Shown here piece by piece: positions 6,043 to 9,479 of a stretch of DNA of 64,000 bases. The DNA is from Caldithrix abyssi. GTDB taxonomy: Bacteria > Calditrichota > Calditrichia > Calditrichales > Calditrichaceae. The stretch covers positions 1 to 64,000 of the forward strand of contig DRQG01000143.1 in assembly GCA_011369465.1 (NCBI GenBank). Direction: 5' to 3'. Each line of letters begins with the position of its first letter. Position 1 is the first letter of the stretch. A program made the translations under genes and the position numbers. The notes below the pieces were generated by a model. It made no database searches. It was not told the origin of the DNA and worked only from the letters and a program-made list of their open reading frames with translations.

Positions 6043-6453
6043 TTATTTCTTTCCTGCAATTTCCATTACCAGATATAGATTGCTAATCGGCTGCTTTTTA
6101 TCGTTACTGAAAACGCGTATGTTTTTCTTGTATTTTCCATGGCGATTTTTGGGATCAAAACGGGCGCGGATTTCACCGGCCTGCCCGGGTGCGATTACTT
6201 CTGAACTCAGAAGTGCGGCTGTGCAGCCTCAGGAGCTTTTTACTTTATAGATTCGTAAGGTATCCGAACCGGTGTTTTGAAATTTGAAAATATGTTCCAG
6301 AATTTTATCCTGACCTACCGACCCGAAATCATATTTTGTTTCGGCAAAGGTAATTTGCGGGCCATCCACGCGGGGCTTCTCCTGTGAAAAGAGGAGATAC
6401 ACACCTGCAAAGATAAAAATTGCAATGATGCCCGATATTCTTCGTAAAAGCAT
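6043..6453 (-). CDS. DUF1573 protein, probable selenoprotein with in-frame UGA (Sec) codon
   Basis: A 136-residue exported protein if the UGA at 6229-6231 is read as selenocysteine. The ATG at 6453 follows a strong AGGAGAGG site. Residues 1-23 form a signal or anchor segment (I-S-G-I-I-A-I-F-I-F-A-G-V). The DUF1573 immunoglobulin-like domain begins with K-Y-D-F-G-S-V and H-I-F-K-F-Q-N-T-G-S-D-T-L. The family motif V-x-S-S-C-G-C-T-A appears here as V-K-S-S-UGA-G-C-T-A, so the codon replaces the first motif Cys (residue 75). After it the frame runs through typical family sequence (I-A-P-G-Q-A-G-E-I, F-S-N-D-K-K-Q-P) to TAA at 6043-6045. dnaJ ends 31 bases upstream on the same strand, so it may belong to the hrcA-grpE-dnaJ transcript. 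The alternative is a truncated pseudogene or a sequencing error of a Cys codon. Confidence 0.82.
6197..6228 (-). promoter_or_regulatory. Candidate bacterial SECIS element downstream of the UGA
   Basis: Read on the minus strand directly after the UGA, a stem-loop forms from ACTTCTG (6214-6208) and CAGAAGT (6203-6197) around the loop AGTT; the next pair (A-T) would also match. The loop starts 21 bases after the UGA and carries G at its second position. If the stem is counted as six pairs, the loop GAGTTC starts with G. Bacterial SECIS elements are described as having a short apical loop with G in its first two positions about 16-37 bases after the UGA. A second small hairpin, GGCT/AGCC, lies between the UGA and the stem. 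Binding by SelB is inferred. Confidence 0.7.
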
Positions 6454-6484: not shown

Positions 6485-7642
6485 TTATAAATTCAATGAT
6501 TCTTTAAAGCGCTGGAATATATTGGGATGGCCGTTGGCTTTAGGCTCCAGATTGGGACTTTCCGACAACTCCTGTAAAAGCCGTTTTTCGGAGGCGCTCA
6601 ATTTTGTGGGCACATAAACCTGTATCTGCACCAGTTGGTCTCCGATACCGGCCCCGTGCAACCGGGGAATCCCCTTGCCGCGCATGCGTAATATCTTACC
6701 CGATTGCGTCCCGGGGGGGATGTTCAATTTGGCTTTGCCGGTCAATGTTGGAATTTCTACCTGCGTGCCCAGCGCTGCCTTGGGAAAACTAAGCGGTAGA
6801 ACCATGATAACATCATCGCCGCGGCGTTCAAAAATATCATGTTTTAATTCTTCGATGGTAACAATCAGATCGCCGGCCGGGCCGCCCCGTAAACCGGCGT
6901 TGCCTTCGCCTTCGATGGGAATGTAATTTCCGGTGGTAACACCGGCCGGAATATTGACTTCGATTGTTTTACTGCCCGCAATCCTGCCGTCTCCGTGGCA
7001 GGAATGACAGGGATTTTCAATGATCTGCCCCTCACCCCGACAGCGCGGACAGGTGGTTACATTGACCAGCTGACCGAACAAAGATTGGGTGACCTGACGG
7101 ATTTCGCCGGAACCGTGACACACCGGACAGGACACCGTTCTGCTGTATTTTGCGGAACCCGTTCCGTTACATTCCGAGCAGGGTACCTGCTTTTTAACTT
7201 TTATTTTCTTTTTAACGCCCGTAGCAATCTCTTCCAGCGTCAATTTGAGCCGAATTTGAATATCCGATCCGCGGCGGCCGGATTGACGGCTGCGCCGACG
7301 CGACGAGGTACGGCCTCCGAAAATATCCCCGAATCCGAAATCCTGATCCATAAACTGACGCAAGGCATCGGCAATATCGAACCCGCCGAAATCAAAGCCG
7401 CCAAAGCCCTGGGCGCCCGGCCCCTGATGACCAAAACGATCGTACTGCTGGCGTTTTTGAGGATCGCTTAAAATAGCGTAGGCCTCGGCAATCTCTTTGA
7501 ATTTGGCTTCAGCCTCTTTATCCCCCGGGTTTTTATCCGGATGATACTGCACCGCCAGTTTTCGGTAGGCCTTCTTTATTTCATCGGTGCTGGCATTGCG
7601 ATCCACGCCCAATATTTCGTAATAATCTCGTTTTGTCGTCAT
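6485..7642 (-). CDS. dnaJ: Chaperone protein DnaJ (Hsp40)
   Basis: A full-length 385-residue type I DnaJ. The J domain has Y-H-P-D-K-N-P with the HPD triad at about residue 35. A Gly/Phe-rich linker runs from about 70 to 115. The zinc-binding region has four repeats, [24 protein letters not shown] and C-H-S-C-H-G-D-G. Two C-terminal substrate-binding domains follow. It stimulates DnaK ATPase and delivers unfolded protein. dnaK is not in the window. It is 8 bases after grpE and part of the hrcA-grpE-dnaJ heat-shock group. The candidate selenoprotein gene follows 31 bases downstream. Confidence 0.97.
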
Positions 7643-7650
7643 TTGAACTC

Positions 7651-8271
7651 CTATTTAGCCACCAGGACCTGCGAATGACGGATCACTTTGTCATTCAACG
7701 TGTAGCCCTTTAAATGCTCCTCAACTATATGCCCGCTTTCGTGTTCTTCCGACTCCACCTGCATTAAGGCCTGATGCTTCTCCGGATCAAATTCCTGCCC
7801 GATTGTTTCCATCTTTTTTAAGCCCTGCTTTTCCAGGATGTTGGACAGTTTTTTATAAATCAGTTCAACGCCTTCCAGCATCGATTGGTTATTTTCGGAT
7901 TCTTTTTTGGCATGTTCCAGAAATCGTTCGAAATCATCCAAAACCGGCAGCAGCTCTACAATAAGACTTTCACTGGCATTTTGCAGTATGGATAGAAACT
8001 CTTTTTCGGTACGTCTTTTATAGTTGTCAAATTCGGCCATTTTCCGCAGGGCTTGATCCCTGAGCTGCTCTTTTTCCTGTTCCAGCTTATGGATTCGTTC
8101 CTGCAGTTCTTTTATTTTACCGCTTTCCTTGCTTTTGCCTTTTTTACTGCGGCTTGTTTTTTTACTTCCGGATGATGTTGCGGTTTCTTTCTTTTTTTCT
8201 TCTGTCGATATGTCCGAACTTTCGTCCTCTATGACGGTTGTTTCTTTAAATTCTTTATCCATTTCTGTCAT
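7651..8271 (-). CDS. grpE: Nucleotide exchange factor GrpE
   Basis: A 206-residue GrpE. An acidic and Lys/Ser-rich disordered N-terminus (about 1-50) precedes the long coiled-coil helix with [11 protein letters not shown] and [11 protein letters not shown]. The four-helix segment with [10 protein letters not shown] and the C-terminal beta domain with F-D-P-E-K-H-Q-A-L and [14 protein letters not shown] follow. It releases ADP from DnaK. It lies between hrcA (50 bases upstream) and dnaJ (8 bases downstream). Confidence 0.96.
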
Positions 8272-8321
8272 CTTTTCCTGTTTAGTTAAACTTCTGCCTT
8301 ATTCAAACAAATTACGTGCCA

Positions 8322-9350
8322 TTAAATGGAACGCAGTTTTTGGGTGATCGCCCGGGCGGTGTATTCCACCAGCGGTATCACCAGCTCATAAGGCATACGC
8401 ATAGGGCCGATAACTCCCAACACACCGGCCGCATTGCCCATATAATAGGTAGAAGTTATAACACTGCAACTCTTTATTGGTTCCGGTTTATTTTCACTTC
8501 CGATCGTTACTTTGGTTCCCGGCGGGAAATCCCGTTCTTCCATCAGATGAATAACCACATTTTTATTTTCCAGTAAATCAACCAGCATGGAAAAACGATC
8601 GGCGTCCATAAACTCGGGCTTATTTACAATATTACTGGTTCCGTTCAAGGCGTAGTTTTCATAGCGACGGAAATCGAACAAACGATCGCTAAAATCCATA
8701 AACAGGCGCACCAGCCCGGTTTCGTCATTACGCAAATCCGCCACGAGATGACGGAAATGATCGCGAATTTGCATCAGCGTTCGACCCTGCAAACGCTGGT
8801 TTATCTTACGCACCACCGGATTAAGCCGCCGGCGGTCCAGCTTGTGACGAATTTCAATCAGGATCGACTTAACGTAACCATCCTGTACTTTGATAATTAC
8901 CATTAACTTATCGGAAGAAACCGGTACGATATCCATGCGCTCAAATACGCTCTGATACAGGCGCGGTGTCACAATGATTCCCAGTTGATTGGAAAGGGAA
9001 GCCAAAACGCGCGCCAACTTGCCCATCAGCAAATCCACATCGCCGTCATAACTTTCGATCGCTTTGCGTATCGGTTTTTCCTTGCCGGGAAGAACCTTGC
9101 TTTTTTGCATCAGTTCATCCACATAAAAACGATAGCCGTTGCCTGTCGGAATGCGCCCCGCCGAAGTATGCGGATGGGTTAAATATCCCTTTTCCTCCAG
9201 TGAGGCCATAATCCGGCGAATCGAGGCCGACTTTAAACCGGTTGTACCCAGGTTCGCTATTTGGGCCGAGCCGATCGGTTTGGCGGTATCGATGTACTGA
9301 CGGATGACCGATCTTAAAATGATTTTTTCGCGATCATTTATTTCTTGCAT
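8322..9350 (-). CDS. hrcA: Heat-inducible transcription repressor HrcA
   Basis: A 342-residue HrcA. The N-terminal winged helix has I-N-D-R-E-K-I-I-L-R-S-V and P-I-G-S-A-Q-I, with the recognition segment S-A-S-I-R-R-I-M-A-S-L-E-E-K-G-Y-L and H-P-H-T-S-A-G-R-I-P. A GAF-like core and C-terminal G-V-L-G-V-I-G-P-M-R-M-P-Y follow. HrcA represses chaperone genes by binding CIRCE elements and is kept active by GroEL. No CIRCE-like inverted repeat was found upstream of this gene or elsewhere in the window. The ATG at 9350 is chosen; a TTG at 9368 would add six residues. Confidence 0.95.
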   Translation of the reverse strand: MQEINDREKIILRSVIRQYIDTAKPIGSAQIANLGTTGLKSASIRRIMASLEEKGYLTHPHTSAGRIPTGNGYRFYVDELMQKSKVLPGKEKPIRKAIESYDGDVDLLMGKLARVLASLSNQLGIIVTPRLYQSVFERMDIVPVSSDKLMVIIKVQDGYVKSILIEIRHKLDRRRLNPVVRKINQRLQGRTLMQIRDHFRHLVADLRNDETGLVRLFMDFSDRLFDFRRYENYALNGTSNIVNKPEFMDADRFSMLVDLLENKNVVIHLMEERDFPPGTKVTIGSENKPEPIKSCSVITSTYYMGNAAGVLGVIGPMRMPYELVIPLVEYTARAITQKLRSI

Positions 9351-9479
9351 TTTACCATACCATTTCAATCAAAGCCTGCAATATAACCGATGAGGGTTAC
9401 ACCTGTCAAGTTAGATAATTTGACGCGGTTAAAGTTACATAGGCGCCTGTAGAAGCAAAAGGGGAAAAATGGTTGTTTT

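Follow-up and report, generated by a model that had tools for sequence, protein, structure and literature searches.

DUF1573 proteins that carry a U-G-C motif are already counted among prokaryotic selenoproteins. In the passages that deal with this family, two papers (PMC9312934, PMC13188914) list DUF1573 with U-G-C as a selenoprotein family, both citing Zhang and Gladyshev 2007, and a third (PMC2398784) enters it as OS_HP2, equated with pfam07610 and a UxC motif; the figure of 354 in the last column of that entry is read here as Cys homologues. The part of the NCBIfam description of NF041425 (OS_HP2 family (seleno)protein) that concerns its source likewise attributes this DUF1573 (PF07610) U-G-C selenoprotein to Zhang and Gladyshev 2007. 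Here we describe a short DUF1573 gene with an in-frame UGA, located in a 64-kb window (the whole stretch of DNA analysed). A first-pass annotation of this DNA had read the UGA as selenocysteine (Sec) and added that the family may be new. The latter suggestion was wrong, as the three papers above already list the family. According to the passages cited, the family has been listed since 2007, and what is new here is an RNA signal conserved among relatives and a possible connection to an enzyme of protein repair.

The window protein resembles OS_HP2 in its Pfam domain, its U-G-C motif, the apparent placement of Sec at the first Cys and the occurrence of Sec/Cys exchange, and its S-S-U-G-C-T motif fits the literature definition of pfam07610 with U-G-C. 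Membership in PF07610 is clear (99.1 bits; the Pfam gathering cut-off is 26.1). NF041425 was matched by all 17 members of alignment A2, and the window protein aligned to it with 74.8 bits (E 5.3e-21), below the curated cut-off of 100. Judged by these scores, the window clade is related to OS_HP2 but outside the curated subfamily model, and forms a new, uncurated branch within an established selenoprotein family. Because the clade falls below this cut-off, annotation pipelines may well truncate the protein at residue 74. The clade differs from OS_HP2 in that its members have just one short domain and share a hairpin with an AGUU loop in their mRNA, whereas two U-G-C relatives from outside the phylum have longer frames without this hairpin. 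Cys-containing DUF1573 proteins (C-G-C-T) from the same class share the domain and the alignment column with the window protein, but have Cys for Sec, frames of about 230-270 aa and a separate, well supported branch in the tree.

Results and Discussion

A DUF1573 frame continues through an in-frame UGA

The gene (Table 1) starts with an ATG at 6453 preceded by a ribosome-binding site, AAAAGGAGAGGTT. Codon 75 is a TGA within V-K-S-S-U-G-C-T-A-A-L-L, after which the frame runs on as G-C-T-A-A-L-L-S-S and stays open, without another stop, to a TAA ending at 6043. The 136-aa read-through product matched Pfam DUF1573 with an E-value of 1.5e-28 over residues 34-123, a region that spans the TGA. These data confirmed the minus-strand frame as first described, including its passage through the UGA after V-K-S-S and the fit of both sides to DUF1573 without a second stop. 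They also bore out the proposal that the UGA replaces the first Cys of C-G-C-T, as relatives have Cys at this column.

Table 1. Positions of the DUF1573 gene and its features in the window
Feature	Position	Strand	Remarks
DUF1573 selenoprotein gene (very likely)	6043..6453	minus	136 aa, apparent Sec at residue 75; predicted single Ig/PapD-like domain after hydrophobic N-terminus
In-frame TGA, putative U75 of U-G-C-T motif	6229..6231	minus	TGA kept in 14 other single-domain and 2 multi-domain relatives
SECIS-like hairpin CUUCUG-AGUU-CAGAAG	6198..6213	minus	agrees with bSECIS rules; codon freeze
Probable signal peptide MLLRRISGIIAIFIFAGVYLLF	6388..6453	minus	judged by eye

An open frame beyond a TGA is not rare and, by itself, is unremarkable: of the 98 open stretches in the 64-kb window that span 60 codons or more and end in TGA, 9 remain open for at least 61 codons past it. 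For the DUF1573 gene, chance is excluded by the homology that flanks the TGA and by 14 further single-domain relatives that carry TGA at this column. UGA is a stop codon by default, and termination competes with Sec insertion. This general behaviour would favour a true stop, with a short exported peptide of 74 residues as the only product, but the DUF1573 match extends across the TGA and the sequence after it is conserved at the protein level in all relatives, making such an outcome very improbable.

Separately, a mechanical scan of the window returned four further TGA codons that lie in open frame and have a Cys no more than three residues away (21230 and 60885 on the plus strand, 25338 and 47981 on the minus strand); these most likely reflect chance.

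The TGA is retained among divergent relatives

Every close match among 60 relative genomes contained exactly one in-frame TGA. In the aligned relatives, this TGA always occupied the same column and was followed by G-C-T or G-C-A. Single-domain members, including the window protein, number 15, all with TGA, and represent 12 genera in two families of the window's phylum. The TGA form occurs in 13 of the 15 genomes of the window's family (window counted) and in two of three genomes of another family in the class; the three genomes of these two families without a match are 72-80% complete. Single-domain relatives are 37-51% identical to the window protein, so the TGA has persisted despite deep divergence. 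Conservation at the protein level extends over the downstream half in all relatives and is strongest in G-C-T-A-A-L-L-S-S. U-G-C was also found beyond the phylum, in two multi-domain relatives (L031 from G040 and L048 from a genome of candidate division CSSED10-310), and C-G-C-T, with Cys at the Sec column, in other relatives. The exchange of UGA and Cys that the first-pass annotation had suggested looking for was thus found, with TGA conserved at the column and Cys across the wider family. Together, the single-domain members provide a clean, phylum-wide orthologue set, fixed for Sec, of a poorly studied selenoprotein family. A single origin of the Sec form as a clade was considered; with 17 open branches among its 28 inner ones, the tree does not resolve this point.

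This pattern bears on a reading in which a sequencing error, or a pseudogene stop confined to one genome, produced the TGA and the real codon is Cys. The draft state of the assembly and the presence of Cys at this column in distant relatives speak for such a reading. It is refuted by the 14 single-domain and two multi-domain relatives that share the TGA at this column, and is further opposed by the frozen codons and covariation downstream of the TGA (see below), leaving it exceedingly improbable.

The genome encodes a complete Sec-decoding pathway

The window's genome is a draft of 4.31 Mb in 161 contigs with an estimated contamination of 3.7%. It encodes tRNA-Sec (70.9 bits, and also called by ARAGORN, anticodon tca), SelB (346 bits versus a cut-off of 242), SelA (507 bits) and SelD (369 bits), with all four scores exceeding the respective curated cut-offs. 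All of the components that the first-pass annotation had named for a genome search were therefore present, on contigs other than the window's. Among the 60 genomes, SelB scored above cut-off in 15 of 16 with the TGA form, the exception (G003) being 89% complete. In the other family of the order, represented by six genomes, neither the TGA form nor SelB above cut-off was found.

SelD is known in a selenoprotein form. The selD gene of the window's genome (L056, G000:C153:1142-2068) contains a TGA within its reading frame, in V-A-C-A-G-U-A-S-K, and the stretch after it is foldable and able to form an AGGUU loop. This SelD is probably itself a selenoprotein, and its TGA provides a second credible Sec codon in the same genome.

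The pathway also bears on an altered genetic code in which UGA would specify another amino acid throughout, for example Trp. The open frame is all that speaks for such a code. Many open stretches of the window stop at TGA, and the Cys, not Trp, found at this column in relatives, together with the full Sec pathway and its tRNA-Sec gene (anticodon tca), refutes it in practice; we regard its probability as negligible.

A SECIS-like hairpin with frozen codons follows the UGA

The hairpin lies inside the coding region, with 21 nt from the UGA to the loop. Rules for bacterial SECIS (bSECIS) elements specify a stem of 4-16 bp, a loop of 3-9 nt with G in position 1 or 2, a location 16-37 nt after the UGA and a minimum free energy of -7.5 kcal/mol or lower (PMC13188914). 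The window hairpin agrees with all of them, having a stem of 6-7 bp, a 4-nt loop (AGUU) with G at position 2 followed by U, the 21-nt distance and a free energy of -13.4 kcal/mol over 45 nt. The hairpin was found in all 15 single-domain members, each within the same bounds.

One stem pair varies among these members, being U-A in 12 and C-G in three. The covariation score was reached by four of 500 shuffles, and the perfect U-A/C-G association has an exact p of 0.002 assuming independent rows. The C-G genomes (G013, G024 and G007) belong to three genera in two families; the tree lacks the resolution to prove that the C-G form arose independently in them. Codon entropy under the hairpin, across the four residues L-L-S-S, was 0.18 versus a mean of 1.62 at 16 other conserved degenerate positions. 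At the sequence level, covariation alone is modest evidence, because just one pair varies, and the codon freeze is the stronger. In the C-G form, the G on the 3' side turns Glu into Gly in the protein. Pairing thus seems to have been maintained at the expense of the protein, and this exchange offers a worked example of RNA structure apparently taking precedence over the encoded amino acids. When a 64-nt segment around the UGA was folded as a single sequence, the result was uninformative (z -0.30); the case for a SECIS element rests on comparative evidence.

Collectively, the sel genes, the conserved TGA, its exchange with Cys, and the SECIS-like hairpin with its codon freeze and single covarying pair support the original proposal that the UGA is read as Sec, which we consider almost certain from comparative sequence data. 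In the proposed mechanism, tRNA-Sec and SelB would decode the UGA, recruited by the hairpin 21 nt downstream. That Sec is decoded in a DUF1573 protein that is also exported is very likely.

The predicted fold is Ig/PapD-like

Export is suggested by the probable signal peptide recognised by eye, and single-domain relatives also have hydrophobic N-termini. No solved structure was found by sequence search. A structure model built from two sequences is all-beta, with a mean pLDDT of 76, and Foldseek related it to PapD/ASH-like Ig domains (VesC 6bqm, 2qsv, HYDIN 2e6j), not to thioredoxin folds. The predicted fold is accordingly an Ig/PapD-like domain, not thioredoxin, and the protein also matched Pfam PF22544, sharing by both searches the fold of HYDIN/VesB/ASH-type PapD-like domains. 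Such domains are mainly known as structural or anchoring modules, and we know of no Sec-Gly-Cys pair described in them. In the model, U75-G-C77 occupies the turn leading into strand 77-81 and the beginning of that strand.

A possible role in the cell envelope

At this beta-strand edge, the Sec-Gly-Cys pair would most likely form a reversible selenenylsulfide, making the DUF1573 selenoprotein a candidate selenol/thiol redox protein of the cell envelope. A redox role in the envelope is probable. Its most plausible task would be to help repair envelope proteins after oxidation, perhaps as the reductant of an exported methionine sulfoxide reductase B (MsrB).

Gene order provides the lead to this partner. 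No neighbour was common to more than four of the 15 genomes. An MsrB-type gene lies just downstream, on the same strand, in three genomes of one genus (G012, G005, G013) and one of another (G001). These genes (L089, L090, L091, L094) form one cluster; Pfam recognised the SelR (MsrB) domain in the G012 member, the others being assigned by sequence similarity, and all four encode hydrophobic N-termini. The window genome's own MsrB is encoded on a different contig and has a lipoprotein-like N-terminus. In four other genomes, each of a different genus (G006, G007, G003, G008), a co-directional gene of one conserved cluster (L092, L096, L099, L100) lies just upstream, and Pfam assigned the G006 member to MATE-type transporters.

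In the window itself, grpE and dnaJ directly precede the DUF1573 gene on the minus strand, and the frame upstream at 8322-9368 resembles hrcA by eye; together these genes cover 6485-9368. A conserved link to grpE-dnaJ was rejected: of the flanks read, only those from the window's genome have dnaJ beside the gene.

MsrB as the partner remains a tentative assignment, and we are equally doubtful that an exported Sec-Gly-Cys clade on an Ig/PapD-like, non-thioredoxin scaffold serves as the dedicated reductant of exported MsrB in this phylum. Somewhat better than even is the prospect of a selenoprotein whose partner is not MsrB, with U-G-C acting in the envelope as a disulfide isomerase, a peroxidase or a metal-binding site; this alternative disputes just the last step of the mechanism, not Sec decoding. 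It is favoured by the confinement of msrB adjacency to two genera, by the single conserved upstream cluster of four other genera (MATE-type where scanned) and by the position of the window gene after grpE-dnaJ, an order not kept in relatives. Against it, MsrB is the only recurrent neighbour with thiol/redox chemistry, and its adjacency constitutes a directly testable functional lead for the DUF1573 selenoprotein family.
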